Assembly (NCBI RefSeq): GCF_021800405.1
Contig: NZ_CP084550.1
Span: 1,922,001-1,986,000 of the forward strand
Length of the DNA: 64,000 nt
Direction of reading: 5' to 3'
Source: Arthrobacter sp. FW306-07-I
Lineage (GTDB): Bacteria > Actinomycetota > Actinomycetes > Actinomycetales > Micrococcaceae
Shown here: positions 17,057-47,572 of the stretch, one piece after another
How positions within the stretch are numbered: position 1 is the first letter of the stretch
How the letters are laid out: every line of letters starts with the position of its first letter
The notes under the pieces: generated by a model
Told to the model about the DNA's origin: nothing
Database searches by the model: none
Seen by the model: only the letters and a program-made list of their open reading frames with translations
Position numbers and translations under genes: made by a program

Positions 17057-17070
17057 TTGCGTTTGCGCAA
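17057..17070. promoter_or_regulatory. TTGC palindrome, site 1 (sugar porter / GH15)
   Basis: TTGCGTTTGCGCAA, with flanking A and T extending the dyad to 6-bp arms. It is identical to the site at 47559. It lies in the divergent gap between the sugar porter and the GH15 gene. Proposed MarR-family operator. Confidence 0.65.
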
Positions 17071-17215
17071 TAGAAAGACTTGTGTGGTCCAATCGCGGCC
17101 TTTCGGATGAGGGCACCCGGAGGATACTACTAAGAACTACGCGACGGGGCAGTGAAGCTGCTGTTCTACCGGGTCGACCCCCTAGGGATCGACCAAACGA
17201 ATTTTCCATTCTCCA

Positions 17216-17229
17216 TTGCGTTGGAGCAA
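17216..17229. promoter_or_regulatory. TTGC palindrome, site 2 (GH15)
   Basis: TTGCGTTGGAGCAA ends 23 bp before the GH15 start codon at 17253, so it would overlap the promoter. Second site in the same divergent gap. Confidence 0.6.
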
Positions 17230-17252
17230 CTATTGCCTTTAGACTCGTCTCT

Positions 17253-19022
17253 ATGGCTGAGGCGTCAACCGACTTCCCCCCGCATGTTTTACGCGAGTAT
17301 GCGATGGTTGCGGACGGTGCCCGGGCGGCGTTGATAGGTCCCCGGGGAGATGTGGTGTGGATGTGCGCCCCACGCTGGCATGATGATGCAGTCTTCTCGG
17401 TGCTGTTGGGCGGGCCTGGGACTTTCGCGGTAAGTCCGACTGATTCCCGGTATGTGTGGGGCGGACAGTACGAGGACGGCACGCTGATTTGGGTGAGCAG
17501 GTGGGTAACAGCGACAGGAATCATAGAGTGCCGGGAAGCGCTGGCATATCCGGGGGATCCTACCCGCGCCGTACTGCTGCGGCGGATTTCTGCTGCCCTG
17601 GGCCCCGCGTCCGTTCGGATGATAATGGACGCACGGGCCAACTTCGGCAAGCACAAAATGACCCGACTTTCCTGCCACGACGGTGTCTGGACTGCGCGTT
17701 CGGGGAACCTGAGGGTACGTCTGGTGGGTGCGCCGGGGGCGAAGTCCGGTGACGACGGTCTTGAAGCAGTCTTTGATCTGGCGGAAGGCGAATACCACGA
17801 CCTGGTGCTGGAAATCTCCGACCACCAACTGCCCGAAGAGCCAGCGGAGCCAGGGCCCACGTGGAGCGCCACGGAGAATGCCTGGCATTCGGTGGTCCCG
17901 CGGTTCGATAACACGATATCCGCCGATGACTGCCGGCAGTCATATGCTGTTCTCCGCGGAATGACAGGGGTGGGGGGAGCGATGGTGGCGGCCTCCACCA
18001 TGGGCTTGCCGGAGCGGGCGGAGCAGAAGAGGAATTACGACTACCGCTATGCGTGGATCCGGGACCAGTGTTACGTCGGCCAGGCAGTCGCGGCCTGCAA
18101 GATGTTTCCGCTGTTGGACGACGCGGTGGGTTTTGTTGCCTCCAGATTGCTCGCGGACGGCCCGGACATGCGGCCCGCTTACACCACGGAGGGCGGCCAG
18201 GTCCCGGATGAATGGGACGTCGGGTTGCCCGGATACCCGGGTGGCGCGGGCCGGGCCGGGAACTGGGTCAATGATCAGTTCCAGTTGGACGCTTTCGGGG
18301 AGTCACTGCTGTTGTTCGCCGCCGCTGCAGAGAATGACCGGCTGGACCTTGAGCAGTGGAAGGCGGCAGAAATTTGTGCCGATGCCATTATGGCGCGGTG
18401 GCAGGAACCCGATGCGGGCATGTGGGAACTGGACAACCGCAGGTGGGCCCACTCCCGCCTCATCTGTGCTGCCGGTCTGCGGGCCATTGGACGAAACGCT
18501 CCACCGCAACAGGGCGCGAAGTGGACCTCACAGGCTGACACACTGATTACGGACGTTGCCAGCGACTGCCTGCACCCCAGCGGGCGGTGGCAACGCGCAC
18601 CGGATGATGACCGCGTGGACGCGTCCCTGCTTCTTCCGGTGATCCGTGGTGCCCTTCCCCCGGATGACCCCCGCTCCGTAGCCACCCTTAAAGCAGTACA
18701 GGACAACCTGGCCAGGGACAGGTACCTGTACCGCTTCCGCCAGGACGGACGGGCCCTGGCCAAGTCCGAGGGGGCTTTCCTGCTCTGTGGTTTTGACATG
18801 GCCATGGCCCTGCATCAAAGCGGAGAGACCACCGAAGCGATTCGGTGGTTCGAAAGAAACCGGGCTGCCTGTGGCTCTCCCGGCCTCTTCACGGAGGAGT
18901 ACGACGTCGAGCAGCGCCAGCTTCGGGGCAATTTCCCGCAGGCCTTTGTGCACGCGGCCATGCTCGAAACCTCGCGTCGGCTGGCGGATCCTCCGCCCCC
19001 GTGGCGGGGCCTGGGTTCCTGA
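17253..19022 (+). CDS. Glycoside hydrolase family 15 protein (trehalase/glucoamylase type)
   Basis: 589 residues. An N-terminal beta-sandwich (ALIGPRGDVVWMCAPRW) is followed by an (alpha/alpha)6 barrel with NYDYRYAWIRDQ and, near the end, TEEYDVEQRQLRGNFPQAF, the usual C-terminal GH15 block. Actinobacterial relatives include trehalase and glucoamylase, so it probably frees glucose from trehalose or an alpha-glucan; no signal peptide, so cytoplasmic. The ATG at 17253 fits where the fold begins, but no Shine-Dalgarno sequence is visible, so the mRNA may be leaderless. It is the first of a closely spaced run of plus-strand genes. Confidence 0.88.
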   Translation: MAEASTDFPPHVLREYAMVADGARAALIGPRGDVVWMCAPRWHDDAVFSVLLGGPGTFAVSPTDSRYVWGGQYEDGTLIWVSRWVTATGIIECREALAYPGDPTRAVLLRRISAALGPASVRMIMDARANFGKHKMTRLSCHDGVWTARSGNLRVRLVGAPGAKSGDDGLEAVFDLAEGEYHDLVLEISDHQLPEEPAEPGPTWSATENAWHSVVPRFDNTISADDCRQSYAVLRGMTGVGGAMVAASTMGLPERAEQKRNYDYRYAWIRDQCYVGQAVAACKMFPLLDDAVGFVASRLLADGPDMRPAYTTEGGQVPDEWDVGLPGYPGGAGRAGNWVNDQFQLDAFGESLLLFAAAAENDRLDLEQWKAAEICADAIMARWQEPDAGMWELDNRRWAHSRLICAAGLRAIGRNAPPQQGAKWTSQADTLITDVASDCLHPSGRWQRAPDDDRVDASLLLPVIRGALPPDDPRSVATLKAVQDNLARDRYLYRFRQDGRALAKSEGAFLLCGFDMAMALHQSGETTEAIRWFERNRAACGSPGLFTEEYDVEQRQLRGNFPQAFVHAAMLETSRRLADPPPPWRGLGS

Positions 19023-19081
19023 CAGCCACTACCACCAACCACAAGTTTGGGGAAGCAACCGAGACACGACGAGGAGCACGC

Positions 19082-20104: not shown

Positions 20105-20475
20105 GGGCGCCGGAGGCCGTCCGGGCAGCCTACGGCCTATGCCAGCTGGTCTCGCCGGCGGTGATGTTCCGTCTGGCGATCGGACATCAACCAGAATCAG
20201 GTGCCAGCGTCGTGATGCGGATTCTGGGCGCCAGGCACCTCTTCCAGGCCGTGGTCATCGGTGCTGCCCCAACCTCGGCCGCTCTGCACTGCTGCGGCGG
20301 TGTTGTGGATTCACTGCACTCGGCCAGCATGGTTGCCCTGGCGGTTGCCGATCACCGGCACCGCAGGGCAGCCGCCTCGGATGCCATCGTCGCCGCGCTG
20401 TTCGCAGGCATGGAATTTGCCGTGGCACGCCGTTGCAGGCCGGTTCCGCCGGTGGCGTCCCCCAGGCGGTGGTGA
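20101..20475 (+). CDS. Small helical protein, paralogue of the 40812 gene
   Basis: 124 residues, unnamed family. It starts MRAPEAVRAAYGLCQLVSPA and has RILGARHLFQA, VDSLHSASMVALAV and a C-terminal Ala-rich helix; the minus-strand gene at 40465-40812 has the matching AAYGSAELFAPGA, RVLGARHLLQA and VDALHALTMLVLA. Several helices are hydrophobic enough for membrane insertion. Function unknown. Coupled by overlap to the SDR. Confidence 0.75.
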   Translation: MRAPEAVRAAYGLCQLVSPAVMFRLAIGHQPESGASVVMRILGARHLFQAVVIGAAPTSAALHCCGGVVDSLHSASMVALAVADHRHRRAAASDAIVAALFAGMEFAVARRCRPVPPVASPRRW

Positions 20476-20574
20476 CGCGGTGCTGGTTGGACAGGGCAGG
20501 GTCAGTTCGAAGTGTGTAGCGCAAGGACAAATTCACGCAGTGATACAACCACAGCGTGATGAGAGGGGAGCGGC

Positions 20575-23323: not shown

Positions 23324-23354
23324 ACCACACAGCGTTAAACAAGAAAGGCCGGCC

Positions 23355-25004: not shown

Positions 25005-26354
25005 TCAGGGAGTTTTCTTCACTGGCTTGTGCGCGTCCGTGCTGCGGAAATGATCCTTTGGAAGCCGCGCATGTGCCAGCGGCCGGTCGCCGCCGCGCCG
25101 CAGTGTCAGCATTACCAAGCCGGCGGCCAGCAGGCATGCCGCCAGGAATATGGAGGTGGCAAGGAAGCTGCCGTGCGTCACGTCCTGCAGGTATCCACCC
25201 ACGTAGGGTCCGACGAATCCGCCGAGGTTGCCCACCGCGTTGATCAGCCCCATGGCAGTGCCAGCGACGGCGACGGGCATGGCACGGGACGCCGAAGCCC
25301 AGAAGGGACCGTCATAGGCCAGGGCGCCGGCGACCGCGATGCTGATCAAGGTGATGGCGAGGAACGGAAGGTTATCGCCGGTCGCCACAGAGATCACCAG
25401 GGCGACAGCACCAATCGCCATTGATAGCAGCACGTGGGTGGAGTAGCGGCCGGAACGGTCGGCTGCCTTGGCGTTGTACCAGAGACCGAACATTGCCAAC
25501 ACGTACGGGATGGCCGTGATCAGCCCGACCTCTATCGAGGAACCCGATGTAATGGTCTTGATCACGTGCGGCAGCCAGATGTTGATGCCGTAGAAGCCGA
25601 TCTGGATGAGGAAATACACCAGGGTCAGTCGCCACACCACGCTGTTAGACATAACGTGGCGCAGTCCGAGCTTCTCCTGCTGGGGATGTGCCGCTGCGTC
25701 AGCAGCGAGTCCCTCCTCGATGTATTCGCGCTCCTGGACAGAGCACCACTTCGCTTCCCGCGGGTGGTCGGCGATCAGGGCCCACCACAGCGGAGCCGCA
25801 ATGATGAACGGGAAAATGCCCTCGATGATGAACAGCCACCGCCAGTCCGAGAAAGAGAGGATCCACCCGGACAGCGGCGCTGTGATGATGGAGGCGATCG
25901 CGATGTTCATCATCCACAGCGCATAAGCGCGCGCCCGCTCAGCGGCGGGGAACCAGTGGCTGATCAGTACAAGGATCGCCGGCCAGATCCCGGCCTCGGC
26001 CACGCCAAGGAAGAAGCGCACCACGAGCAGTTGGGTGAAGTCCTGGATGAAACCGGACAGGACAGCCAGCACGCCCCAGATGAGCACCATGATGCCCACG
26101 AACTTCTTCGCACTCCAGTGCTCGGCGAGATGTCCGCCTGGTATCTGCAGGACGAGGTAGCCGATGAAGAAGATGCCTGCCGCCAGGCCCTGTTGGGCGG
26201 CGTCGATGCCCAGGTCCTGATGCAGCCCGTTCAGGGCGAAGCCGATGTTTGTCCGGTCCATAAACGAGATGATGTAGACAATGATTGCGACGGGAATCAG
26301 CCGCTTCCACCGGGCATTACCCACGGCAGGTGCGGACGTCACATTCCGTGCCAT
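25005..26354 (-). CDS. MFS transporter, anion:cation symporter (ACS) type
   Basis: 449 residues with 12 helices. The N-terminal YIISFMDRTNIGFAL and the helix-4/5 region VAEAGIWPAILVLISHWFP are characteristic of the phthalate/D-galactonate/tartrate group, so a carboxylate or sugar acid is the likely cargo. It faces the enolase-superfamily gene, consistent with uptake of an aldonate for that enzyme. GAAGGAGC before the ATG. A palindromic operator-like site lies 214 bp upstream. Confidence 0.88.
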   Translation of the reverse strand: MARNVTSAPAVGNARWKRLIPVAIIVYIISFMDRTNIGFALNGLHQDLGIDAAQQGLAAGIFFIGYLVLQIPGGHLAEHWSAKKFVGIMVLIWGVLAVLSGFIQDFTQLLVVRFFLGVAEAGIWPAILVLISHWFPAAERARAYALWMMNIAIASIITAPLSGWILSFSDWRWLFIIEGIFPFIIAAPLWWALIADHPREAKWCSVQEREYIEEGLAADAAAHPQQEKLGLRHVMSNSVVWRLTLVYFLIQIGFYGINIWLPHVIKTITSGSSIEVGLITAIPYVLAMFGLWYNAKAADRSGRYSTHVLLSMAIGAVALVISVATGDNLPFLAITLISIAVAGALAYDGPFWASASRAMPVAVAGTAMGLINAVGNLGGFVGPYVGGYLQDVTHGSFLATSIFLAACLLAAGLVMLTLRRGGDRPLAHARLPKDHFRSTDAHKPVKKTP

Positions 26355-26894: not shown

Positions 26895-28730
26895 TCAGTG
26901 TTCTTTCTCGTCGTGGGCCTCGCCGATGTGAAGTTTTCCTTTTACGCGTTCAATTCCTTCGGTGAGGAGGGCCTTGGCCGAGTCGCGCATCACGTCGACT
27001 CCGTCGGGGTCTTTCTTTAGCAGAGCTTCTGCTGTGTGCTTTGCGAACTCGAACGTGATGTGAGGGGGAAGGGGCGGTACGTTTTTGCTCGTGTAGGCAT
27101 CGATGAGAGTGACCCCGCGATGGGCGAATGCGGTGTCCCAGGCGCCGGGGACCTCATCGTCTGTTTTGACGCGGATTCCGGTGAAGCCGAGCATCTCCGC
27201 CCACCCGGCGTAGTCGACGGACTGAACGTTCTGCGAGGTGGACCAGACAGGGTTCGCGTCCTCGGTGCGCATTTCCCAGGAAACTTGTGTGAGGTCATTA
27301 TTGTGCAGAATCAGGATGATCAGCTGCGGGTTTTCCCATTCCTGCAGGTATTTTTTGATCGTGATCAGTTCGTTCATGCCGAGCATCTGGAAGGCGCCAT
27401 CGCCGATGGTGCAAATAACGGGTCGGTCGGAATAGGCGAATTTTGCGGCTGTGGCGTACGGCATGGCGGCGAGCATGCTGGCGAGTCTTCCGGAAAGGTC
27501 ACCGAGCATGCCCCGGCGGAGTCTGATGTGGTGGCCGTACCAGTCTGCCGTGGAACCGGCGTCGGCCGTGACGATGGCGTCCGGTGGCAGGCGCTTGTTC
27601 AGTTCGTGATAGACGCGTCGGGGATTGACGCCGTCTTTGTAGGTCAGCATCGCCTGTGCTTCCATCTCACTTTCCCACTCCAGCATTTCCTTGGCGACGG
27701 TGTTCTGCCACGAGAGCTCGGTTTTTTGGTCCAAGTGCGGGATTAGCGCCCTGAGGGTTGCCTTCACGTCACCCCACAGGTTGAGTTCGGTGGGGTAGCG
27801 CAGCCCCATTTGCTCGGGCTTGAGATCGATTTGGATGGCTCGTGCTTGTCCGCTCTTAGGTAGGAACTGGCTGTAGGGGTAGTTGGTCCCAAGGAATACC
27901 AAAGTGTCGCATCCGCTCATTTGGTGGGCGCTGGGCAGCGAACCCAGGAGACCGAGTTGCTGTGAATGATGAGGCACGTCGGAGGGGATTACCTGTTTCC
28001 CCCGCAAGGCGGTTATCAGCCCGGCACCACAAATGTCGGCGGCCTGCAGGACCTCCTCGGTGGCCCCGTTCGCCCCGTGTCCGACGATGAATGTGACTTT
28101 ACTGCCCGCGTTGATGATGCGGGCGGCCTTCTCGATTTCGTTTTGCGCGGGGATGATTGAGATGGATGGGGCGACAGCACTGGAGCGTGATACCCAGTTT
28201 TGGGGAGTGAGTTCGGGCATTGTCATTGCCTGCACATCGTGGGGAATGACGATCACGGCGGGTCCGAGCCTCACCTTGGCAGTACGGAAGGCGGTGTCGA
28301 CGACGGCCTGCGCTTGCTCCGGTGAGACGATCGTCTGGACATAGACCGCGACATCGGCCATGGTGCGTTCGAGGTTGCTTTCCTGCTGGGTAAAGGTACC
28401 GAACGCGTTCAGTCCCTGCTGGCCCACGATGGCGACGACCGGCTGGTTGTCCATCTGAGCATCGTAGAGGCCGTTGAGCATGTGGAAGGCCCCGGGGCTG
28501 GAGGTTGCCACGCAGACACCGACTTCGCCCGTGAACTTGGCGTGGGCGGTCGCCATTAGAGAACAGATCTCCTCATGCGTGGGACGCACATACTTCAGAC
28601 CTGCTTCATCGCGCTGGGCCTTTTCCAAGGCGCCATCGAACTCGCCAATCCCGTCACCAGGAAAAGCGAAGATGCGGCTGACACCCCATTCCCTGATGCG
28701 TTGGATCACAAAATCGCTGACAGTTGCCAT
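26895..28730 (-). CDS. Thiamine-pyrophosphate enzyme (pyruvate oxidase/acetolactate synthase type)
   Basis: 611 residues. N-terminal pyrimidine-binding domain with the catalytic Glu in PTHEEICSLMA, a central domain, and a C-terminal TPP site IGDGAFQMLGMNEL with HNND. It acts on pyruvate or a related 2-oxo acid, giving acetate/acetyl phosphate, acetolactate or similar; the family member cannot be fixed from motifs. A GGAGGAAG site precedes the ATG at 28730. A small membrane protein gene lies upstream on the same strand, and a palindrome precedes both. Confidence 0.88.
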   Translation of the reverse strand: MATVSDFVIQRIREWGVSRIFAFPGDGIGEFDGALEKAQRDEAGLKYVRPTHEEICSLMATAHAKFTGEVGVCVATSSPGAFHMLNGLYDAQMDNQPVVAIVGQQGLNAFGTFTQQESNLERTMADVAVYVQTIVSPEQAQAVVDTAFRTAKVRLGPAVIVIPHDVQAMTMPELTPQNWVSRSSAVAPSISIIPAQNEIEKAARIINAGSKVTFIVGHGANGATEEVLQAADICGAGLITALRGKQVIPSDVPHHSQQLGLLGSLPSAHQMSGCDTLVFLGTNYPYSQFLPKSGQARAIQIDLKPEQMGLRYPTELNLWGDVKATLRALIPHLDQKTELSWQNTVAKEMLEWESEMEAQAMLTYKDGVNPRRVYHELNKRLPPDAIVTADAGSTADWYGHHIRLRRGMLGDLSGRLASMLAAMPYATAAKFAYSDRPVICTIGDGAFQMLGMNELITIKKYLQEWENPQLIILILHNNDLTQVSWEMRTEDANPVWSTSQNVQSVDYAGWAEMLGFTGIRVKTDDEVPGAWDTAFAHRGVTLIDAYTSKNVPPLPPHITFEFAKHTAEALLKKDPDGVDVMRDSAKALLTEGIERVKGKLHIGEAHDEKEH

Positions 28731-29099: not shown

Positions 29100-29113
29100 T
29101 TGCGCCTACGCAA
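29100..29113. promoter_or_regulatory. TTGC palindrome, site 4 (TPP-enzyme unit)
   Basis: TTGCGCCTACGCAA, a perfect TTGCG-N4-CGCAA. It lies upstream of the small hydrophobic protein and TPP enzyme. The following 29114-29553 holds no recognisable gene. Confidence 0.65.
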
Positions 29114-34717: not shown

Positions 34718-34739
34718 CTATCGGAGGAAACTGGTACTT

Positions 34740-35240
34740 ATGGATACTGCTGGTGGATCTGAATCAGTCCCGGAACCTTCGAGCCGGGAAGTTGAAGCGG
34801 TAATGCGCGCCGCCGACACCCTCTTGCGCGTGGTCTCCCGTTCGGTTGCCGAGGTCGAGGACGTGGTAAACACCCCGCAACTGCGGGTCCTGGTCCTCAT
34901 CCACACCCGCGGACCACAGAACCTGGGTGGGGTCGCTACAGAGCTGGGAGTGCACGCCTCCAACGCCACGCGCATCTGTGACCGGCTGGTCGCTGCTGAG
35001 CTGCTGGAGCGGCGGGAGGATTCTGCAGACCGGCGATATATCCGGCTCGAACTGACGGCAAAAGGAAAAGCCCTGGTGAATTCCGTGCTCGAGCACCGGC
35101 GGCAGGCCATTGCGGAAGTCATTTCGCGGATGCCGTCTGGCCGCCGGCCGGCACTGGCTGCGGCGCTGGAGGCTTTCGCGGCCGCCGCGGGCGTCCAGGG
35201 CACCACTGACGGCCGCTTTACCTTGGGAGCCAACACGTGA
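34740..35240 (+). CDS. MarR-family transcriptional regulator
   Basis: 166 residues. Helical dimerisation ends flank a winged helix: TPQLRVLVLIHTRGPQNLGG, HASNATRICDRLVAAELLER, and the wing REDSADRRYIRLELTAKGKAL, the hallmark DxRxxxxxLT motif of MarR. It has an extended N-terminal helix. GGAGGAAA precedes the ATG at 34740. MarR proteins are usually ligand- or redox-released repressors of palindromes such as the TTGC-N6-GCAA site just upstream. The only Cys is in the recognition region, so thiol sensing is possible but unproven. Confidence 0.9.
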   Translation: MDTAGGSESVPEPSSREVEAVMRAADTLLRVVSRSVAEVEDVVNTPQLRVLVLIHTRGPQNLGGVATELGVHASNATRICDRLVAAELLERREDSADRRYIRLELTAKGKALVNSVLEHRRQAIAEVISRMPSGRRPALAAALEAFAAAAGVQGTTDGRFTLGANT

Positions 35241-35290
35241 AGTGACGGGGTCGTGATGCCGCAAGCCATGTCTTCATTGAACCCCAATAG

Positions 35291-35304
35291 TTGCGCGTTC
35301 GCAA
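35291..35304. promoter_or_regulatory. TTGC palindrome, site 6 (convergent gap)
   Basis: TTGCGCGTTCGCAA, a perfect TTGCG-N4-CGCAA, lies between the end of marR and the end of the epimerase gene, where no promoter is expected. Possibly a displaced promoter remnant, a roadblock or an unannotated transcript start. Confidence 0.55.
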
Positions 35305-35359: not shown

Positions 35360-36325
35360 TCAGATCGGTGTGATGCCCCACTCGCCGGTATGGGATTGCC
35401 CGGGTTCAAGAGTGATGAGCCCCTCACCGGAGTTGAAGGCGTCAGGGGCGCAGGTCATCGGTTCCACTCCAAGCCCGGTCCGCCGCCGGTCAGGCTGGGG
35501 GAGGGTATCGCCGGTGAAGATTTCCAGGTACGGATAGGACCCGTCCACCCACAGTTCCACGCCCCCGGAGTTATCCGGACGCACCAGTTTCACCCGGGCG
35601 CGCCCGTCGGCGTCACGGATAAGGTCGGTGTAGGCAACGTCGATGTGCCGGCCGCCCAGCTGCTGCAGTTCCCGCAGATCATACTCGGTGCCCTCCACCC
35701 GCTCGTGCCCGGTGGGGATGCCACGCTCATCCACGGGCAGGAAAGTCCTCCCCGGCACCTGAACCAGCGCGGCATCGATGGCCCCGGGAGTGGCGACACC
35801 TGGGTTGAGGTACGGGTGTGCCCCGGTCCCGTAAGGGCACCGCGATGCACTTCGGTTCATTGCCGTGGTCCGTACGGTCAAACCTCCCGGCCCGAGGTGG
35901 TAGTCCAGGCGGCAGTCAAGGATCCAGGGCCAGCCTTGGCAGGCGTGCAGGGTATAGGTGAAGGAAATGGAATCTTCGGTGTACTCCACCGCGGGCGCGT
36001 CCCAGTTCCGCCAGCGGGTGAGCCCGTGGATCGCGCCGCCTTTGTCCGGCTCGCTCAAGTCAAGCTGCAGCTGCTGGCCTTCCCACTCGTAGCTGCCGCC
36101 CTGGATGCGGTTGGGCCAGGGAATCAACGATTGGCCCCGCGCGCCAGTGCACATCTCGTCCGGACCGTATCCGTCCAGCAGGGGCCGGCCGTCCAGCAGG
36201 TAATCCCGCAGGGCTCCCCCGACTTCGGTCACCAGGACCGTTTGCCGGTCGTAAGAGATTTCATATTGACGTCCCGAGGGCAGACAATGGCCGGTCCCGG
36301 TGTCCCACTGGGCCTCCTCACGCAT
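35360..36325 (-). CDS. Aldose 1-epimerase family protein
   Basis: 321 residues, galactose-mutarotase fold: SLIPWPNRIQGG, GLTRWRNW, CPYGTGAHPYLNPG with the catalytic His, and a C-terminal GVEPMTCAPDAFNSG with the general base region. It equilibrates glucose anomers, which suits its position directly behind glucose dehydrogenase: ATGCGTGA at 36325 overlaps the dehydrogenase stop. GGAGG upstream supports this start over the ATG at 36340. Confidence 0.88.
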   Translation of the reverse strand: MREEAQWDTGTGHCLPSGRQYEISYDRQTVLVTEVGGALRDYLLDGRPLLDGYGPDEMCTGARGQSLIPWPNRIQGGSYEWEGQQLQLDLSEPDKGGAIHGLTRWRNWDAPAVEYTEDSISFTYTLHACQGWPWILDCRLDYHLGPGGLTVRTTAMNRSASRCPYGTGAHPYLNPGVATPGAIDAALVQVPGRTFLPVDERGIPTGHERVEGTEYDLRELQQLGGRHIDVAYTDLIRDADGRARVKLVRPDNSGGVELWVDGSYPYLEIFTGDTLPQPDRRRTGLGVEPMTCAPDAFNSGEGLITLEPGQSHTGEWGITPI

Positions 36326-37391
36326 GGCTTCTGCCTCCATCGGTCCCGCGGGACAGGTCGAGGACGACTTTGACGTCGTCAGTCCGGCGCTCGAAGGCCT
36401 CAGCGAAGTTCTCCAGCGGCACCCGGCGACTGATGAGGCGGCGGAGCCATGCCCCGTCGGCTTTAGCGAGTGCCTGGGCTCCGGCGTCGTAGTGGCGGCG
36501 GTTCGCGTTGACGCTGCCGAACACCACGCCGTTCATCAGTACCTCCTCGCGGTTGATTGCGCCCACGTCCACAGGTGTTTGTTTCCCTGTTCCGGAAACG
36601 CCGGTCAGGCAGGTGATGGCATCCTGGGCCCGGCACTTGAATGCATCCAGGACCACCGGGGTGACCCCGGTGCATTCAACCAGGATGTTGGGCTTGATGC
36701 CCGACTCCGGCAGGGGTTCGCTGTGGTACGTGGCGCCGAGGTCACGGACAAGCTCCGGTTTGGGTCCGTCCGTGACGATGTCGAAGACATGCACGTCCAG
36801 TCCCTGCTGGACGCCCAGCAGCGCCGCCAGCAGGCCAACCGGGCCCGCGCCGGTGACGACGGCGGTATGGGGGTCGAAAAATGCCCGCTGCCCGATCCGG
36901 TTGATCTGTTCCCAGGCCTTGGCCACGATGGTGGTGGGCTCCAGCAGGACACCCACATCCTCCAGCCCCGGGTCCAGCTTCACCGTCGCCTGGGCATCCG
37001 CCCGCCAGCGTTCCCGGGCGAAACCGTGCAGGCCCTTGATCCCGTGCTCGGTGTACTTGCCGTTGAGGCACATGTCCCATTCCCCGGCGGCGCAGGCCTT
37101 GCACGGCTCGGGGTCCGGCCGGCGGACAATACCCACTACCAGGTCGCCCGCGGCCAGGCCCGATCCGGAGGGGGCGTCGAGCACCCGGCCAAGGTTCTCG
37201 TGCCCCAGCACCAGGTAGTCCTGGCCCGGCGGCGCTTCCCCGTACTCCGCGGCGATGATTTCGCTGTCAGTTCCACACAGGCCCACAGCCAGCGCCTCCA
37301 CCAGCACCTGGCCCTCGCCGGCGGAGGGCTCGGGGATGTCCCGCAAGCGAAGCGTGTTCTTCTCACCGGGAGTTACCGTCAATGCGCGCAT
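36318..37391 (-). CDS. Zinc-dependent glucose 1-dehydrogenase
   Basis: 357 residues, medium-chain dehydrogenase of the glucose-dehydrogenase type: catalytic zinc residues in LCGTDSE and GHENLGRV, structural-zinc loop PCKACAAGEWDMC, a long KYTEHGIKGLHGF insertion seen in archaeal-type glucose dehydrogenases, and coenzyme fold VTGAGPVGLLAALLG. It oxidises glucose to gluconolactone with NAD(P). The first gene of a two-gene unit with the epimerase; the TTGC palindrome is 53 bp upstream, shared with yihY. Confidence 0.9.
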   Translation of the reverse strand: MRALTVTPGEKNTLRLRDIPEPSAGEGQVLVEALAVGLCGTDSEIIAAEYGEAPPGQDYLVLGHENLGRVLDAPSGSGLAAGDLVVGIVRRPDPEPCKACAAGEWDMCLNGKYTEHGIKGLHGFARERWRADAQATVKLDPGLEDVGVLLEPTTIVAKAWEQINRIGQRAFFDPHTAVVTGAGPVGLLAALLGVQQGLDVHVFDIVTDGPKPELVRDLGATYHSEPLPESGIKPNILVECTGVTPVVLDAFKCRAQDAITCLTGVSGTGKQTPVDVGAINREEVLMNGVVFGSVNANRRHYDAGAQALAKADGAWLRRLISRRVPLENFAEAFERRTDDVKVVLDLSRGTDGGRSHA

Positions 37392-37443: not shown

Positions 37444-37457
37444 TTGCGTTTGTGCAA
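37444..37457. promoter_or_regulatory. TTGC palindrome, site 7 (gdh / yihY)
   Basis: TTGCGTTTGTGCAA, with flanking G and C extending the arms, in the 129-bp divergent gap between glucose dehydrogenase and the YihY-type gene. One dimer could control both directions. Confidence 0.65.
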
Positions 37458-38748: not shown

Positions 38749-39639
38749 TCAATGCCCGGAAAGCGGGGGGATAGCCGGCGGAACTTGCCGCCCATGTTCA
38801 TGGCGCCGCGGCGCACCGCGGCTGAGGTCCAGAAGGATCACGACTGCGAGAAGAACGATCGAGAGCGACGCGGAGGCCACCGTGTCGGTAAACCAGTGGT
38901 AGCCGAGGTAGACACGGGATGCTGCTTCCACGCACAGGCCAACGGCAGCGGCACAGAAAGCCGTGATCAGGGAGATTTTTCGGGAGGAGCGTGAAAAGGC
39001 CAGGTAAGCGCCGATGAGCAGGAAGTTCGAGGCGCCAACGACGTGACCGGAGGGAAAAGAGGATGTCGCGTCGGCGCCAAGCATCATGATGTCGGCCGGA
39101 GGCCGGGAACGCCCGACCGCGTGGGCGATGACCTCCGTAAGCACTACGCCGGTGAGCATCGCCCCGGCCAGCAGTACCGGGCGCCACAACCGGCGGGTCA
39201 CCAGGGCCCACGCAACTACGGCCACCAGAGTGATCACGGGAAGCGCCAGGGGCCCGAAAACGAAGGCGAATCCGGCAAGAACCACCGTGGCTGCACCGGT
39301 CCGGTGGTCGACGAACCAGTCAGTCATGGGTCCGTCAATGGTTGCGAGCCCGCTGCCCTTCAGCACGTCCCCGAGGGTCAGCACAAACGATGACATGCCT
39401 GCCAGGACCAGGCATAGGGACACGGCATAAAGAACCAGGAACCGCCCAGTGGAGACCCTGCAGCCCCCGCCTAAGCGGAAATGTTTCTGCAAGTTCTGCC
39501 CGGTAATAGGTCGCCGGTCGCTGCTCATCGGCTGCTTCATGTGACGGACCGGGCAGTCCGGGCTGGCCGGCGAGGGCCGCTGCAGGACTGTTGGTTCGGA
39601 TCCTGTGCTGACTGGGCCTTCACGGCTTATCCCTCGCAT
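38749..39639 (-). CDS. PAP2-family phosphatase
   Basis: 296 residues at most, six helices. The three catalytic motifs are visible: VGRSRPPAD, SSFPSGHVVGAS and SRVYLGYHWFTDT. It hydrolyses a lipid phosphate such as undecaprenyl pyrophosphate or phosphatidic acid at the outer membrane face. The start is uncertain: the ATG at 39639 overlaps the DUF4193 stop, but the ATG at 39540 fits the fold better; neither has a strong ribosome-binding site. Last gene of the 41159-38749 minus-strand run. Confidence 0.87.
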   Translation of the reverse strand: MRGISREGPVSTGSEPTVLQRPSPASPDCPVRHMKQPMSSDRRPITGQNLQKHFRLGGGCRVSTGRFLVLYAVSLCLVLAGMSSFVLTLGDVLKGSGLATIDGPMTDWFVDHRTGAATVVLAGFAFVFGPLALPVITLVAVVAWALVTRRLWRPVLLAGAMLTGVVLTEVIAHAVGRSRPPADIMMLGADATSSFPSGHVVGASNFLLIGAYLAFSRSSRKISLITAFCAAAVGLCVEAASRVYLGYHWFTDTVASASLSIVLLAVVILLDLSRGAPRRHEHGRQVPPAIPPLSGH

Positions 39640-39926
39640 TCGAGGCAGTAGGCATGTCCGCCTTTCTCCTTGGCCAGTTGGGACCGGTGGTGGACCAGGA
39701 AGCAGGACGAGCAGACGAACTCATCCTTCTTTGGGGGGACGACTTCGACGATCAGCTCTTCGGCGATGTAATCCCCTGGCAGGTCGACGCCGTCGACGGT
39801 GTCGGCCTCGTCGAGTTCTTTCACGACGCTGCGTGCGTCGGGGGTGTTTTCTGTCCGCAGTGCTTCCAGGGAACTTTCCTGGGACTCTTTTACATCAGGG
39901 CGGACTTCGTCGTAATCGCTGGCCAT
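39627..39926 (-). CDS. DUF4193 protein
   Basis: 99 residues, the exact family length. Acidic throughout (MASDYDEVRPDVKESQESSL; LDEADTVDGVDLPGDYIAEE) and ending with a zinc ribbon, FVCSSCFLVHHRSQLA and YCLECEG. Universal in actinobacteria; function unknown, possibly RNA-polymerase or nucleic-acid associated. AGAGG precedes the ATG at 39926. Confidence 0.92.
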   Translation of the reverse strand: MASDYDEVRPDVKESQESSLEALRTENTPDARSVVKELDEADTVDGVDLPGDYIAEELIVEVVPPKKDEFVCSSCFLVHHRSQLAKEKGGHAYCLECEG

Positions 39927-39958
39927 GGTGCCTCTCATTTCTTCTCGAACTTGATCTC

Positions 39959-40369
39959 CTAATTCACGTGCTGCTCTTCTTTGGCGGGCTGTTCTTCTGA
40001 CTGCGCTTCGATATGTTTGCGCTGCCGCTCGAGTTCGTCCTCGCCCTCGTCTTCAGCTTCGTAAAGCTTGGAACTGGTGACCTCAAGCTCTTGCATGATG
40101 GCGTCGAGTTTGAGGTGCAACGCTGCGGAGTCCCGGTTCTGGGTGTTCTGGATGATGAAGACCATCAGGAACGTCACGATCGTCGTGCCCGTGTTGATTA
40201 CCAGCTGCCAGGTGTTGGAAAAACCCAGCAGCGGCCCGGTGCAGGCCCACACGACCAGTACGGCGACGGCTGCGCCGAAGACCCAGGCATGGCCCAGGAC
40301 CTTTGCCGTCCTGGAGGTGAACCTGGTGAAGAAACCGGGCCTGTCGGCGGTGCTTTTATCGGTAGTCAT
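39959..40369 (-). CDS. Low-affinity iron permease family protein
   Basis: 136 residues. Two helices near 24-44 and 52-74 with GTTIVTFLMVFIIQNTQNRD, the diagnostic block of this family, then LHLKLDAIMQ and a long charged tail. Despite the name, a true iron transport role in bacteria is not established. It sits 32 bp before DUF4193 in the same orientation. Confidence 0.87.
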   Translation of the reverse strand: MTTDKSTADRPGFFTRFTSRTAKVLGHAWVFGAAVAVLVVWACTGPLLGFSNTWQLVINTGTTIVTFLMVFIIQNTQNRDSAALHLKLDAIMQELEVTSSKLYEAEDEGEDELERQRKHIEAQSEEQPAKEEQHVN

Positions 40370-40464
40370 GGTCCCGTCCTTGAATGACTCATTTTCTCTG
40401 ACCAGTACGTCTGCTGAGGTGGCGCCCCCGACTGTCGGATATGGCTGCCCGGGGCTTTGCCTGG

Positions 40465-40812
40465 CTACGGCCGGCCACGGCGGATCACTGGCCGGAGTTC
40501 ACCTGCGGCGAAGGCCAGGGCGATGGCCGCATTGGCTACGGCGGGGTGCCTCCGCCGCCGGTCCACTGCTGCCAGGACCAGCATCGTAAGGGCATGGAGG
40601 GCATCGACCCCGGCGCTGGTGCGGCGCAGGGCAGCCCCGCCACCGAAGGTGCTGGTTGCTGCGGCCTGCAGCAGGTGCCGTGCCCCCAGGACACGGATGA
40701 ATGTGCGGGCGTGAGTATCAGGGATGCGTCCGACCAGGAAGCATGCCACCGCACCAGGGGCGAAGAGCTCCGCACTACCGTACGCTGCCCTCAGCACGTC
40801 TAAAGGTTTCAC
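40465..40812 (-). CDS. Small helical protein, paralogue of the 20101 gene
   Basis: 115 residues. VLRAAYGSAELFAPGA, FIRVLGARHLLQA and VDALHALTMLVLAAVDRRRR align with the 20101 protein, including the invariant LGARHL. GTG start at 40812 overlaps the stop of the upstream gene. Function unknown; the pair of paralogues in one island suggests a specific role in it. Confidence 0.75.
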   Translation of the reverse strand: MKPLDVLRAAYGSAELFAPGAVACFLVGRIPDTHARTFIRVLGARHLLQAAATSTFGGGAALRRTSAGVDALHALTMLVLAAVDRRRRHPAVANAAIALAFAAGELRPVIRRGRP

Positions 40813-41159
40813 CGCGCATCCTTTCGGCTCAGGACTGCCACAACGCCGGCAATCGTGGTGAGGTTTGCTCCGAGCCCAACCCCGGTGAAGCGGTGATGCT
40901 GCGAGGCAACCAGTTTGGGGCCAAGCTCCTGCTCGACGAGCTCAGCGGCAGCGCCAAGTTCGTGCCGGTCTGCCGCATGGATCTGGTTTAGCAGCCCTTC
41001 CCGCCGCAGCTGCAACTTTTGCCGCGGCCCCGGAAGGTCCTGCACCAACCTTGGCGAAGAGGGGGACATCATCACGCTGCGGGCCAAAGGCGACCGCGGA
41101 GGCCCGGCCGGTCCCCCGGCCGCTCCTGTTACGGCGACAAGCCTGCATGCTGTTTGCAT
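40809..41159 (-). CDS. Hypothetical protein
   Basis: 116 residues from the ATG at 41159 (AGGGGTG upstream). A Pro/Arg-rich first half, a helical middle (LLNQIHAADRHELGAAAELV) and a weakly hydrophobic C-terminal helix (VGLGANLTTIAGVVAVL). No family recognised. Its TGA overlaps the GTG of the LGARHL-type gene, so the two are translationally coupled. TTGCG half-sites lie just upstream (about 41190-41220), but no full palindrome. Confidence 0.5.
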   Translation of the reverse strand: MQTACRLVAVTGAAGGPAGPPRSPLARSVMMSPSSPRLVQDLPGPRQKLQLRREGLLNQIHAADRHELGAAAELVEQELGPKLVASQHHRFTGVGLGANLTTIAGVVAVLSRKDAR

Positions 41160-41420
41160 CTGGATCACCCCTATGGCTTTCAGCCGGAAGTCACATGAAC
41201 AGTATCGCAACAGTTATCGGCGCGCAAGTGCTTTCGCCGCCCCGATTCGGCTGCCACGGGATAGTTCTGCTCGTGGGCTTTCCTGGGTGACCCGCACCCT
41301 CCGCCCGCTACGGCTGCCGGCCAGGAGGTTTCACTGGTCAGGGATTGCATTTAGGCGGCCAAAGCCCCCTTAATCATGCTAGTACTTGCGCCAGCACAAA
41401 TATCCCGGTTCCATGAAGTC

Positions 41421-42140
41421 ATGAAAACGGATAGCAGCAGATCAAGTCGGGAAACAATGGCCGCTGGCGGTTTGGCAGGCCTGCTCGCTACAGGAGCGAT
41501 GAGCGGACTGCTCGTTGCCGCCGATGTCATGGGCGTGATGAACTACGAGCCGCCCCGGAAGATTATCGACAAGTTCTTCCCCCGGCTTCCGCTGCCGCTG
41601 CGGGACGCCGCGGCAGTCCTGGCCCACTTCGGGTACGGGGTGGCCGGCGGCTGTCTGTACGTTCTGACCCGCAGGAAGCAGTCAACCCCGGGAGCGGGGC
41701 TCGCTTACGGTGCACTGGTGTGGGCGGCGGGATACGAGGGCTGGCTGCCTGCCATGGGAATCCTGCCCCCTGCCCACCGGGACCAGACCGGCAGGGCACT
41801 GACGATGCTGGCCGCCCATCTGCTCTACGGCGCCGTCCTGGGCAACGTTCTTCAAGGACCAAAGCCGGCACGGGCCGATCCCGCCCCTGCTGCACCTGGC
41901 GGCTCGTCCAGGCCTTTAGGTGATGAAGACACCACTGATCTTCCAGCGCAGTTGCCGGAATCATACGCCAGGTACCTGGCAGGGAAGGATCCCGCCTTCA
42001 CTGCGACAGTGCTGCCGGTCCTGGAACAATCCGCAGCTGTCCGGGAGCACGGGGTACATGTACGTTTCATCCCCGGCGGGGTCCAGGCACTCGTGGATCC
42101 CGCGGTTCCCTATCCTCAGGTCACCGAAGGCGTTGACTAG
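41421..42140 (+). CDS. Four-helix membrane protein (DUF6789/YagU-like)
   Basis: 239 residues. AAGGLAGLLATGAMSGLLVA in the first helix, a Pro/Arg loop, then HFGYGVAGGCLYVL, GLAYGALVWAAGYEGWLPA and LAAHLLYGAVLGNVL resemble the DUF6789/YagU group. The C-terminal ~75 residues are soluble and Pro-rich. Function unknown. I chose the ATG at 41421; the frame extends to 41376 without domain support. Confidence 0.6.
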   Translation: MKTDSSRSSRETMAAGGLAGLLATGAMSGLLVAADVMGVMNYEPPRKIIDKFFPRLPLPLRDAAAVLAHFGYGVAGGCLYVLTRRKQSTPGAGLAYGALVWAAGYEGWLPAMGILPPAHRDQTGRALTMLAAHLLYGAVLGNVLQGPKPARADPAPAAPGGSSRPLGDEDTTDLPAQLPESYARYLAGKDPAFTATVLPVLEQSAAVREHGVHVRFIPGGVQALVDPAVPYPQVTEGVD

Positions 42141-44386: not shown

Positions 44387-44582
44387 GTAGAACTTCCTTT
44401 GTCCGTGCCGCCCGCAATGGGGCCACACGAAACAAGGATCGAGACAAGGCCCAGCAGACAACGCCTTCGGGATAGTTGAAAATATGCAAATAATCCTAAA
44501 GGCACACCTTTCCGTCAGGCGGGGCTGTGGGTTACAGGACCACAACGATCCTGTCAGTTCGTATCGGAAAGCCCACTGTTTA

Positions 44583-44596
44583 TTGCTTATGCGCAA
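44583..44596. promoter_or_regulatory. TTGC palindrome, site 8 (PBP / DUF1622)
   Basis: TTGCTTATGCGCAA in the 330-bp divergent gap between the penicillin-binding protein and the DUF1622 gene. No other feature is seen in the gap. Confidence 0.6.
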
Positions 44597-44716
44597 CTGA
44601 TGCGTGAAACTTGTGTCAAGGCCTCCAGGCCTGGGGACGGAAGGTTCAGGACCAATCAGTAAAGCTGCTGCCCGTGGTTTTAGCGATGGGCAGTACGGAT
44701 TTGCAGGGAGACGGAC

Positions 44717-45100
44717 GTGGATCTTCGACTCATCATTGAAACGGCAGGCCGCTACCTGGACTTCGCGGGCGTGGCCGTCATGGTCATCGGGGCCCTGGTC
44801 TCGGTGCCGCTGGCCTTGCGGCGCCGAAACCTCCCGGCAGGCGGCGGGCGACCGGGCCGGTCCCTGTACAAGGAGTACCGGCAGTTGCTGGGACGCTCCA
44901 TCCTTCTTGGTCTTGAACTCCTCGTCGCGGCGGACATCATTCGCACCGTGGCCGTGACGCCCACCTTCACCAGTGTCGGCGTCCTGGCCGTGATCGTGGT
45001 CATCCGGACGTTCCTTAGCTTCTCCCTGGAGCTGGAGATCACCGGCCGGTGGCCCTGGCAGAAAGACACGGAACCGGCCTCAACGACCGGCTCGGCCTGA
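44717..45100 (+). CDS. DUF1622 family membrane protein
   Basis: 127 residues with three helices. GVAVMVIGALVSVPLAL, LLGRSILLGLELLVAADIIR and VIVVIRTFLSFSLELEITGRWPW match DUF1622, which occurs widely without a known role. GTG start with AGGGAG. Divergent from the penicillin-binding protein across the palindrome at 44583. Confidence 0.85.
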   Translation: MDLRLIIETAGRYLDFAGVAVMVIGALVSVPLALRRRNLPAGGGRPGRSLYKEYRQLLGRSILLGLELLVAADIIRTVAVTPTFTSVGVLAVIVVIRTFLSFSLELEITGRWPWQKDTEPASTTGSA

Positions 45101-45255
45101 GATGAGACGACGCCGATGTTCGAAACCAGCTGCTTCCTGGCCGGGACCATCAACGCCGCTGGCGTCAGCGGGCCCGGTTCGACCCCGCGGCCTGGCACAG
45201 GGCAGGAACTGCGTGCGGGCTCTGCGTCCGCACCCGTACTTTTAGGGGTAGGAGC

Positions 45256-45993
45256 ATGAACGCCGAAGATCACGTGGACGACTTTCAGCGGCTGTACGGG
45301 CTGGTCACTGAATCGGCAGACATCAAAGATTTTCTGGATGCCATGACCGGCGTCGGCGCCTCGGTGATGACCCGGCTGACCGGGGAACGAATCGAATGCG
45401 CGGTGACGCTTCGACGGCGTAAGCGCAGCACGACGATCGCCGGGAGCAGTGATGATGCCGTCCTGCTGGATCGGGTGGAACAACGCCTCGGGAAGGGGCC
45501 CTGCGCTTTGGCGCTGGAAACCGGCTTGCCCGTGCTGCTCGACGATGTCTTCAGTGATGAGCGTTGGCCCCGGTTCAGCGAGAGTCTCGCCGCCATGGGG
45601 TGCCGCAGCGTACTCGGAGTGCCGATGCCGTCCGGTTTTGATGCCGAAGCGGTCCTGGATTTCTTCGCCCCCTCAGCCGGGACCTTCACCGGCGAAGTGA
45701 TCCAGGATGCAGGTGTCTTTGCGGACATGGCAGGGCGGGCACTGTCTTCGGTCCTGAGGATTGCCATAGCCGAGGAGGCGGCCCGGAACCTCCGGGCAGC
45801 CCTTGAAACCAGGACCGCCATCGACATTGCCTGCGGCATGCTCATGGAGCAGAACGGGTGCGGGCAGGAAGAAGCGATCGGAATCCTTCGCCGGGTGTCC
45901 AGTATGCGCAACCAGAAATTGCATGACCTGGCCGAGGAAATCATCACCCAAGTGTCCGGCCGACACGGGGTAACAACTCATTTCGAGGACTAA
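45256..45993 (+). CDS. GAF and ANTAR domain protein
   Basis: 245 residues. A GAF-type sensor domain (about 15-165; GPCALALETGLPVLLDDV) is followed by an ANTAR domain (about 170-235; LETRTAIDIACGMLMEQNGC) that binds paired RNA hairpins to prevent transcription termination. Typical of actinobacterial stress or nutrient antiterminators; targets are unknown and no partner kinase is nearby. TAGGAG before the ATG. Confidence 0.88.
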   Translation: MNAEDHVDDFQRLYGLVTESADIKDFLDAMTGVGASVMTRLTGERIECAVTLRRRKRSTTIAGSSDDAVLLDRVEQRLGKGPCALALETGLPVLLDDVFSDERWPRFSESLAAMGCRSVLGVPMPSGFDAEAVLDFFAPSAGTFTGEVIQDAGVFADMAGRALSSVLRIAIAEEAARNLRAALETRTAIDIACGMLMEQNGCGQEEAIGILRRVSSMRNQKLHDLAEEIITQVSGRHGVTTHFED

Positions 45994-46202
45994 AACCCCC
46001 GTCACAGTCCCTGCTGCGCAGGTCTCGTTGAGGCAGACACCATGGTCAGTGGACAAAAACGCCCTCGGGTTTACAGGGACCGGCCAGTCAAAGGAACGAC
46101 GTCGACGATCAGGCTCAAACCACTGTATCCAACACCAAGAGAGAGCACCATGAATACAAAACTCACCACCTGCGCCCGGATCAAACCAAGCCGTGACGGG
46201 TC

Positions 46203-46433
46203 GTGAAACGACACCGGCGGCCGGCGCTCACCTCGCCGGCAACCGATTCACAGCTCTTGCGGATGCTCACCACACACACCCACTGCGGTGAGCCCATGAC
46301 GGCCTCCCGCCAGGGACCCGTTGTCGAGAGCCGCACCAGCGCTGTGCACGACGTCGTCACCTACAGCTGCGCCTGCGGCTTCAGGTTTGATCAGCCAACC
46401 AGTTCAGAGCACCACGATAAGGAAGTCCCATGA
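46203..46433 (+). CDS. Small zinc-ribbon-like protein
   Basis: 76 residues, GTG start overlapping the stop of an 18-codon leader frame that begins at 46150. HCGEPM and YSCACGFRF provide four Cys/His positions of a ribbon; the rest is polar. A degraded relative with HCGKPL and RCDCGFRME is present at 56090-56400. The true start may be an internal ATG (46263). Its TGA overlaps the ATG of the lipoprotein gene. Confidence 0.5.
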   Translation: MKRHRRPALTSPATDSQLLRMLTTHTHCGEPMTASRQGPVVESRTSAVHDVVTYSCACGFRFDQPTSSEHHDKEVP

Positions 46434-46900
46434 AACCCGCGAACAGCACCACGAAGATCTTCCGGCTGATCCCAGCCCTGGCAATAGCAGCTGGTCTGCT
46501 GACCGGCTGCTACAACCCCTCGGACGGAGACCGTGACCCCATTGCCCTCGGCGCGGACCTAAACTTCTCCGGACTGCAATTGCGGAGCGTCCTGATCGTG
46601 ACGTCTGGCCAAAACGAACCCGGGCGCGTCCTGGGAACAATCTTCAACACCACCCCCACGGACATACAAATGGTCCTGGCAGACTCAGACGAACAACACC
46701 CAGTCAAGATCCCCGCCCTCGGACACGTCGAGTTCGATCAATCAGCCCTGATCTTCAACAGCACACACGAGCCTCCCGGCGCCCGCACCGATCTACAGGT
46801 AACAGCGAAAGGGCAGCAGGCCACAATCAACGTTCCCATCCAGAACGGAACCTTTGACCAGTACCGACCCTACATTCCATCTCCGAGCCCATCCAGCTAA
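46430..46900 (+). CDS. Putative lipoprotein
   Basis: 156 residues. Signal sequence with lipobox LAIAAGLLTGC (Cys about 27), so it should be lipid-anchored outside the membrane. The mature part is a beta-rich domain of ~120 residues with GRVLGTIFNTTPTDIQMVLA, similar in style to small actinobacterial secreted proteins, without a named domain. AAGGAAG before the ATG, which overlaps the upstream stop. Confidence 0.7.
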   Translation: MKPANSTTKIFRLIPALAIAAGLLTGCYNPSDGDRDPIALGADLNFSGLQLRSVLIVTSGQNEPGRVLGTIFNTTPTDIQMVLADSDEQHPVKIPALGHVEFDQSALIFNSTHEPPGARTDLQVTAKGQQATINVPIQNGTFDQYRPYIPSPSPSS

Positions 46901-47154
46901 TTCCAAAGACCAGTACCTGACGACGCATCCAGGACCTATCGGAGGTGGGCACGGATCGCGCAGCATGCCGAACCCCGTCCACCAACGCGTGGGCCTCAAT
47001 AAGCAGACCTTTCGCCGCCTGGCGAGTGACGGGGTTTTTCAGCCTGACGTCAGCGCATTCCTGCCTGCTGCGTCGGGCCAACCCGGAAGCCGCCCGGCCC
47101 AAGCCTCGGGCCCTCGCTGGCCTCCCCTCCGGTTGTCTGACCTGAGGTGGAGAG

Positions 47155-47415
47155 ATGAGTACACACGAAGAAGAACTCCGGGTCATCCATTACCTGAACA
47201 TCACCATGAGCTTCTACGCGATCTCCACGGGTGAGCTCTGGCTGCGGTACATCGGTCTCGGCGGGGAAAGCCGTTCCTACGAAGTTGATGAATGGCTCCG
47301 CGGGTTACGGTCCCTCCCGGACTTCCAATGCTTACTGCTTCGAATGACGATTGATGAAATCAGAGATAGCCAGCCCCCGGCCCCCAGACTTGGCTTCGGG
47401 TCGGAAAGTAAATAG
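47155..47415 (+). CDS. Small protein, paralogue of the 12646 gene
   Basis: 86 residues. TGELWLRYIGLGG, VDEWLRGL and MTIDEIRDS align with the 66-residue protein at 12646. Strong ribosome-binding site (GGTGGAGAG). Soluble and acidic, unknown function. Confidence 0.65.
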   Translation: MSTHEEELRVIHYLNITMSFYAISTGELWLRYIGLGGESRSYEVDEWLRGLRSLPDFQCLLLRMTIDEIRDSQPPAPRLGFGSESK

Positions 47416-47558
47416 CCCTGCGGGGTCTAAGTCGCGCCCGTTGTGGCAGCGACACCGGAAGCACTTTCACCCCGAAAACCTCATACATGGCAGAAACTGT
47501 AACGAGCAGGCAGGACAGCGGGAAACTTCATTCCCACGCATCAGGAAGCGACTCTCCG

Positions 47559-47572
47559 TTGCGTTTGCGCAA
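47559..47572. promoter_or_regulatory. TTGC palindrome, site 9 (HtrA-like lipoprotein)
   Basis: TTGCGTTTGCGCAA, identical to site 1, lies 171 bp upstream of the protease start, in a 328-bp gap (47416-47743) with no other feature. Confidence 0.65.

Follow-up and report, generated by a model that had tools for sequence, protein, structure and literature searches.

A probable MarR regulon of sugar-oxidation genes in Arthrobacter sp. FW306-07-I, with one operator facing antisense into the putative repressor gene

The window analyzed here is a stretch of 64,000 nucleotides (nt) from contig NZ_CP084550.1 of Arthrobacter sp. FW306-07-I (assembly GCF_021800405.1, positions 1,922,001 to 1,986,000). It contains one gene for a MarR-family regulator (marR), surrounded by genes for sugar breakdown, and nine copies of the palindrome TTGC-N6-GCAA. 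Judged from sequence comparison, these palindromes are probably the operators of this MarR, which would act as a local repressor. One of them, called O2 below, lies behind marR and resembles a promoter directed antisense into it. The genes concerned are the following.

17253..19022, plus strand: GH15 glucoamylase/trehalase-like enzyme (Pfam 2.1e-43)
25005..26354, minus strand: MFS transporter (best NCBIfam match D-galactonate transporter, 279 bits, below the cut-off of 395)
26895..28730, minus strand: thiamine pyrophosphate (TPP) enzyme, pyruvate-oxidase-like (PRK08273; NCBIfam 747 bits, cut-off 724)
34740..35240, plus strand: marR, 166 amino acids (aa), MarR-family winged-helix regulator (Pfam MarR 2.1e-13 on the shorter reading 34803-35240)
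35360..36325, minus strand: aldose 1-epimerase (mutarotase; Pfam 2.4e-45)
36318..37391, minus strand: glucose-dehydrogenase-like protein (ADH_N, Glu_dehyd_C; Pfam 2.5e-64)
44717..45100, plus strand: DUF1622 membrane protein (Pfam 1.6e-24)
47744..48811, plus strand: HtrA-like protease with a PDZ domain (Pfam Trypsin_2 1.1e-28)

The cluster set also includes a GMC oxidoreductase with a gluconate-2-dehydrogenase subunit 3 and a sugar-acid-dehydratase-like enolase member, and the MFS transporter listed above is of galactonate type. Such a gene set would fit the direct oxidation of glucose derived from di- or oligosaccharides, with substrates that are inferred, since all NCBIfam matches except that of the TPP enzyme fell below their cut-offs. 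The DUF1622 protein and HtrA may add an envelope component.

An initial annotation of the window had described nine intergenic palindromes and a single marR gene. The coordinates of the nine sites proved correct, and no other exact match was found in the window, where 100 dinucleotide shuffles gave a mean of 1.31 (standard deviation 1.12, maximum 5). Sites with one mismatch showed no clear excess in the window (36 against a shuffle mean of 28.3, with 10 of the 100 shuffles reaching 36), so that only the exact sites carry signal. All nine lie between predicted genes, with the caveat that four of them (17057, 17216, 34704, and 44583) fall within longer, mechanically called open reading frames (ORFs) that score as coding. 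These four were counted as intergenic because homologues align from a downstream ATG. Site 35291 is flanked by the ends of two convergent genes and stands in front of no gene. A Pfam check covering 30 of the 55 predicted genes agreed that marR is the only one of its family in the window.

When the sites were aligned in gene direction, the left arm TTGCG occupied the position of a -35 element and a -10-like hexamer followed 9-10 base pairs (bp) past the operator. The right arm GCAA, mostly CGCAA, was conserved and the central bases varied. In the window, the putative operators and their hexamers are arranged as follows.

17057..17070, strand unassigned: operator between the divergent sugar transporter (minus) and GH15 (plus) genes, perhaps the transporter's; also in locus L055
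17216..17229, plus strand: GH15 promoter operator, -10-like TAGACT at 17240-17245, 7 nt before the ATG at 17253; a like layout in L028 and L055
26568..26581, minus strand: MFS transporter promoter operator, -10-like GAGAAT at 26558-26553
29100..29113, minus strand: operator some 370 bp ahead of the TPP enzyme gene; kept in L021 and L022
34704..34717, plus strand: O1, marR promoter operator, TTGCGG as -35, -10-like GAAACT at 34727-34732, 7 nt to the ATG
35291..35304, minus strand: O2, operator 50 bp past the marR stop codon, between convergent genes, -10-like TTCAAT at 35281-35276
37444..37457, minus strand: O3, glucose dehydrogenase promoter operator, -10-like GAAGCT at 37434-37429
44583..44596, plus strand: operator facing the DUF1622 gene, -10-like GAAACT at 44606-44611, matching the composite motif described below on the plus strand; L021 has an operator with CAGACT in the same place
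47559..47572, plus strand: operator upstream of htrA, -10-like TTGAAT at 47582-47587

With the -10 element 7 nt before the ATG, the mRNAs of both marR and the GH15 gene look leaderless. Of the targets proposed in the initial annotation, those for sugar hydrolysis, glucose oxidation, transport, and the protease were kept, as probably was the TPP enzyme. Peptidoglycan synthesis was dropped from the list: the hexamer at 44583 faces DUF1622, so the penicillin-binding protein (PBP) is probably not a target, and at 37444 the orientation of the -10 element likewise points to glucose dehydrogenase, for which reason BrkB was rejected. Site 35291 has no conventional target and resembles an antisense promoter.

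Across the whole 4.56-Mb genome the palindrome was not enriched (37 exact copies against 51 for a reversed control), and the signal is therefore its clustering. Thirteen of the 37 copies fall in two clusters on contig 1, nine in the window (1,939,057-1,969,572, that is, window positions 17057-47572) and four at 2,031,601-2,045,043; this concentration has a binomial probability of 2.6e-10 even when calculated over the whole 164 kb stretch, a region picked after the sites had been seen. For the stricter form TTGCG-N4-CGCAA, six of the seven genome copies lie inside the two clusters. Of the 24 off-cluster copies of TTGC-N6-GCAA, 16 lie within ORFs of clear coding score (above 30, our own threshold).

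The second cluster (L019) is a rearranged paralogue of the first. Its marR lies 86 kb from that of the window and is 90-92% identical to it, and identity to the window was 88% for glucose dehydrogenase, 79% for the epimerase, 89% for the GH15 enzyme, 97% for Zip, 91-96% for the MFS transporter, and 82% for the GMC oxidoreductase. Its four sites take the same places as those of the window, namely ahead of the MFS transporter gene, ahead of marR (O1), just behind marR (O2), and ahead of glucose dehydrogenase (O3). A 20-bp extended palindrome with at most three mismatches was tried as well, giving seven places against 42 for its reversed control and adding no convincing target; five of the seven lay in the clusters, four being known sites and one being window position 41383. 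Several marR loci per genome were also seen in Pseudarthrobacter sp. fls2-241-R2A-127 (two, L021 and L025) and Arthrobacter sp. ISL-85 (three, L023, L024, and L028).

The arrangement around marR recurred in relatives. A MarR scan of named genomes, for which homology queries began at codon 2 (34743), returned 15 loci, 12 of them from Arthrobacter or Pseudarthrobacter and the others from a Lacisediminihabitans metagenome-assembled genome (MAG), an Actinopolymorpha, and, as a weak partial match, a Lentisphaeria MAG. These 15 loci held 49 sites, compared with three for the reversed pattern and four for CGTT-N6-AACG. Eighteen marR copies of at least 76% identity were then assembled from the scan loci, the two of this genome, and genomes of the same genus, with the duplicates L053 (of L029) and L055 (of L022) dropped. 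Exact sites were present at O1 in 15, at O2 in 17, and at O3 in 17. The copy with neither O2 nor O3 (L028) lacks the pair of glucose dehydrogenase and epimerase genes next to marR and carries sites before a GH15 gene instead. In addition, loci of differing gene content (L028, L031, L032, and L033) again had a site upstream of marR, at 39-168 bp from the match. Eight further marR loci, with flanks too short for O3, had O2 in seven and exact O1 in two; leaving out L130 and L131 (which repeat L030; G478 is near-identical to L030 at O2), O2 was present in five of six and exact O1 in two of six.

Promoter direction was scored at these sites with -10 weights trained with each class held out. The hexamers by class were GAAACT for marR, GACACT/GAGACT for glucose dehydrogenase, GAAAAT/TTCAAT for the transporter, and TAGACT for GH15. 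The score preferred the gene direction at O1 in 15/15 copies, at O3 in 17/17, before htrA in 6/6, before the MFS transporter in 9/9, and before GH15 in 2/3. Left unscored were L059:4292 (HtrA side), L052:770 (second transporter side), O1 of L031-L033, and the TPP, sugar-transporter, and PBP sites.

Operator and -10 element were next combined into the composite motif TTGC-N6-GCAA-N9-KWNAMT, which was scanned in 206 genomes of the genus. Its mean count was 4.7 in 20 genomes with marR (minimum 2) and 0.53 in 180 genomes lacking it (maximum 3; 12 with two or more), a contrast (Mann-Whitney p 1.4e-15) that is uncorrected for relatedness and partly in-sample. The pattern had been derived from 14 of the 20 marR genomes, and the six unused ones (G463, G478, G482, G540, G599, and G605; G477 is the genome of L030) held 2-9 composite motifs each. 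In this genome all nine composite matches fell in the two clusters, 17216 matching only on the strand opposite the GH15 gene. Of 59 genomes, 8 had the close marR, and exactly these 8 had the glucose dehydrogenase orthologue; a 71% identical copy elsewhere in one marR genome (L121) had no site. The htrA gene gave a similar contrast: close HtrA loci with marR had a site in 4/4 cases, orthologues (62-66%) in six marR-less genomes had none within 1.5 kb (0/6), and remoter HtrA paralogues had one in 1/15, inside coding sequence.

Some background matches have a character of their own. Among the matches listed, many composite matches in the genus were one recurrent sequence, TTGCCGGCCAGCAAGCCGG. A 29-base sequence, TTGCCGGCCAGCAAGCCGGGGCTGTCACT, recurs in many genus members, usually as one copy per genome among the matches listed, and possibly lies within a conserved gene. 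Identical copies of TTGCGTCTGCGCAA were present at least five, four, and two times in the marR-less genomes G019, G029, and G036, respectively, perhaps as part of a mobile element or as another regulator's site.

The encoded protein has a MarR winged-helix domain (Pfam 50.4 bits, cut-off 24.6), and 23 PDB sequences match it, mostly named MarR. Its recognition helix (HASNATRICDRL) is of the NA[TS]R type. Among remoter MarRs, the site was present in 9/12 loci with this helix type and in 1/12 with other helices (Fisher p 0.0014), a comparison in which six of 12 loci come from one genus and from which L047 was left out, its helix not having been read. The site precedes the marR match by no more than about 120 bp in eight of the nine positive loci and follows it in L076. 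A word test of all 4-N6-4 palindromes in distant loci was uninformative, with TTGC in 5/19 loci, GC-rich words in up to seven, and a wrong strand choice for four tied loci; the helix comparison took its place. The reading of the palindromes as a MarR regulon, already proposed in the initial annotation, thus gained five lines of support: the paralogous cluster, the conserved positions, the co-occurrence across genomes, the HtrA contrast, and the recognition helix.

Several observations weigh against this reading or against its promoter part. The relatives compared are related genomes, so the counts are not independent. Six genomes with a 60%-identical marR averaged only 0.5 composite motifs, although in five of the six the palindrome by itself preceded the marR match by 48-82 bp. 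Exact O1 was absent from 3/18 marR copies and from six of the eight further loci, so that the proposed control of marR itself would be less conserved than O2 and O3, and the losses in the further loci slightly lowered our confidence in the core assignment of operators to MarR. One locus with an 82% identical marR (L132) had no exact site across its 3.5 kb. The TPP-enzyme and sugar-transporter sites are without the common -10 spacing. The hexamers are weak matches to TATAAT, and a scan with the sigma-70 consensus yielded no promoter, which implies non-consensus elements. Finally, the -10 position that was scored had first been spotted by eye, O2 included, and hence only the held-out weights and the check in further loci are independent of that choice.

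At O2 the -10 score favored the antisense direction in 17/17 copies (mean 5.82 versus 0.40), with TTCAAT or TTGAAT at, or within one base of, promoter spacing. A check at the fixed position in the further loci found one of these hexamers in 7/8 (5/6 without the two L030 repeats). What lies beyond marR on the minus strand differs between loci. In the second cluster there follow a DUF gene (g18), a gluconate-dehydrogenase subunit, the GMC oxidoreductase, a TPP enzyme, an MR_MLE dehydratase-like protein, Zip, and GH15; many relatives have much the same gene set, and the window has Zip, g26, and GH15 instead. A layout of glucose dehydrogenase and epimerase, reversed marR, and then more genes on the first strand was found in 16 of the 17 copies with O2, the genes beyond marR not being seen in L023. 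Toward the g18 operon, O1 had no -10-like hexamer (mean score -0.80), which leaves O2 as the only operator-linked candidate promoter directed at it; the operon may also have a promoter that is not linked to an operator. No terminator-like site was found on the minus strand from O2 to the next genes, in scans of low power that returned fewer sites than shuffles and are blind to Rho-dependent ends.

These data tip the balance toward O2 being an active promoter. The arrangement we favor is a MarR-controlled O2 promoter that would read antisense through marR into the operon behind it, giving a noncontiguous-operon layout in which the repressor gene is embedded. A MarR dimer would bind TTGCG-N4-CGCAA; since the operator overlies the -35 element and the spacer, bound MarR should exclude RNA polymerase and thereby repress. 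MarR is proposed to repress its own promoter at O1, glucose dehydrogenase together with the aldose epimerase at O3, and also the GH15 hydrolase, the sugar-acid-type transporter, DUF1622, and htrA; the TPP enzyme and the sugar transporter would probably be repressed as well. The likely inducer would be a metabolite of direct sugar oxidation, and the two marR copies, having the same operators, probably cross-regulate. O2 would be a repressed promoter on the opposite strand which, once induced, sends antisense transcription through marR toward the minus-strand catabolic genes. More tentatively, and with rather less than even confidence, we suggest that marR lies reversed in the leader of an operon that its product represses, with the convergent promoters at O1 (sense) and O2 (antisense) both closed. 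Transcription from O2 would then be catabolic mRNA and marR antisense RNA at once, so that induction would reinforce itself and might be switch-like.

An ORF of 183 aa on the minus strand (window 34718-35269) covers all of marR, its ATG lying 6 nt after the -10 element of O2. The ATG has this position in 15/17 copies, with ORFs of 182-197 aa across marR. As a real gene it was rejected and is probably an artifact, the ATG being missing from L023, displaced by a single base in L029, and in a different reading frame in L034. By a hand derivation, the third codon positions of the antisense frame lie opposite those of marR, and in GC-rich DNA such a frame is expected to stay open over a long stretch.

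Other explanations of O2 were weighed against an operon promoter. It is less likely, though a real contender, that O2 does not serve as a promoter for downstream genes and does no more than tune marR, either through a short antisense RNA or through transcriptional interference. This would agree with the conserved TTCAAT/TTGAAT facing marR (17/17 by score, 7/8 further loci) whatever minus-strand gene follows, be it Zip, as in the window and L021, or the DUF(g18) operon, as in L019 and many other loci; against it stand the lack of a terminator-like site up to the next genes, as far as the low-power scans go, and the position of O2 as the sole operator-linked promoter aimed at the g18 operon. We consider it improbable that O2 is an auxiliary operator without promoter activity, looping the DNA to O1 or O3. 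The distance from O1 to O2 is indeed constant, about 587 bp, in most copies with both, and O2 sits between convergent gene ends; however, a constant marR length alone produces that distance, looping predicts no conserved -10 hexamer on one strand at promoter spacing, and O2 persists where exact O1 has been lost.

The remaining alternatives concern the palindrome itself. That another regulator, co-inherited with the cluster, binds it and MarR is a bystander seems quite improbable to us. Co-occurrence alone names no binder and the cluster is inherited as a block, but marR and its upstream site recur amid different gene content (L028, L031, L032, and L033), and among remoter homologues the site follows the sequence of the recognition helix. 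Least credible is an alternative sigma factor with TTGCG as its -35 element, which would make the palindrome incidental. The left arm does lie at -35 with -10-like hexamers at a fixed spacing; yet the right arm is also conserved and the center varies, as expected for a dimer operator, an argument weakened by the requirement for both arms when sites were collected. The preferred reading therefore remains that of MarR operators, with O2 as a candidate operon promoter.

Comparable regulators are known in related bacteria. CrtR of Corynebacterium glutamicum (PMC7432914) is described as a MarR-family repressor of its own gene or operon, as is proposed for the MarR here, and Ms6508 of Mycobacterium smegmatis as one that binds a palindrome at the promoter of its own gene or operon (PMC4143341). 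Ms6508 has one target and another palindrome (ATACCTCTGTNACAGAGGTAT), whereas the present system combines multiple operators in each cluster with a set of sugar-oxidation genes and an operator that faces antisense. Among solved MarR structures, the closest by sequence is Rv1404 of Mycobacterium tuberculosis (PDB 2nyx), which matches over residues 17-151 (E 4.4e-24) and is described as an acid-stress regulator. Its recognition helix (QPSATGRMVDRL) differs from HASNATRICDRL, and none of six loci with an Rv1404-type helix had TTGC-N6-GCAA within 3.4 kb of sequence (0/6); a common subfamily was rejected on these two grounds. GntR1/GntR2 of C. glutamicum gluconate catabolism (PMC2230225) also represent actinobacterial control of gluconate and glucose use, but belong to a different regulator family.

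For the layout around O2, the nearest parallel is the noncontiguous operon, or excludon, menE-menC-MW1733-ytkD-MW1731 of Staphylococcus aureus, in which a gene of opposite orientation is described inside a co-oriented set (PMC7154746); as there, transcripts would overlap here. In our case the embedded gene would be the repressor itself and both overlapping promoters would carry its operator. No case of MarR autoregulation by an antisense promoter appeared among the open-access papers listed, and the one that combined these themes (PMC12435677) proved unrelated. For the initial annotation no described regulon of such composition was known, and none appeared in the titles and abstract openings of the open-access papers listed on Arthrobacter, MarR, and glucose/gluconate oxidation. 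A regulator of direct sugar oxidation in Arthrobacter and Pseudarthrobacter is thus apparently undescribed, and the novelty lies mainly in the antisense-facing O2. For such a regulator of direct (non-phosphorylative) sugar oxidation in these two genera, the analysis proposes the operator, the arrangement of the promoters, and the set of targets. If O2 is an active antisense promoter, a repressor gene would be nested antisense in its own operon, and the induction of sugar oxidation in a soil bacterium would be predicted to be switch-like.

Some neighboring genes are worth recording. Genes for a PAP2 phosphatase, DUF4193, a low-affinity iron permease, and DUF6789 (38749-42140) adjoin the regulon in L021 and L022 too. 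In the window no exact operator accompanies them, and L021 carries an additional TTGC-N6-GCAA at 16467. Farther on in the window (50949-55494), a MerR-like regulator, identified by eye, adjoins a mercuric-reductase-like pyridine nucleotide-disulphide reductase, which is followed by genes that, again by eye, resemble an IS21-type insertion element.

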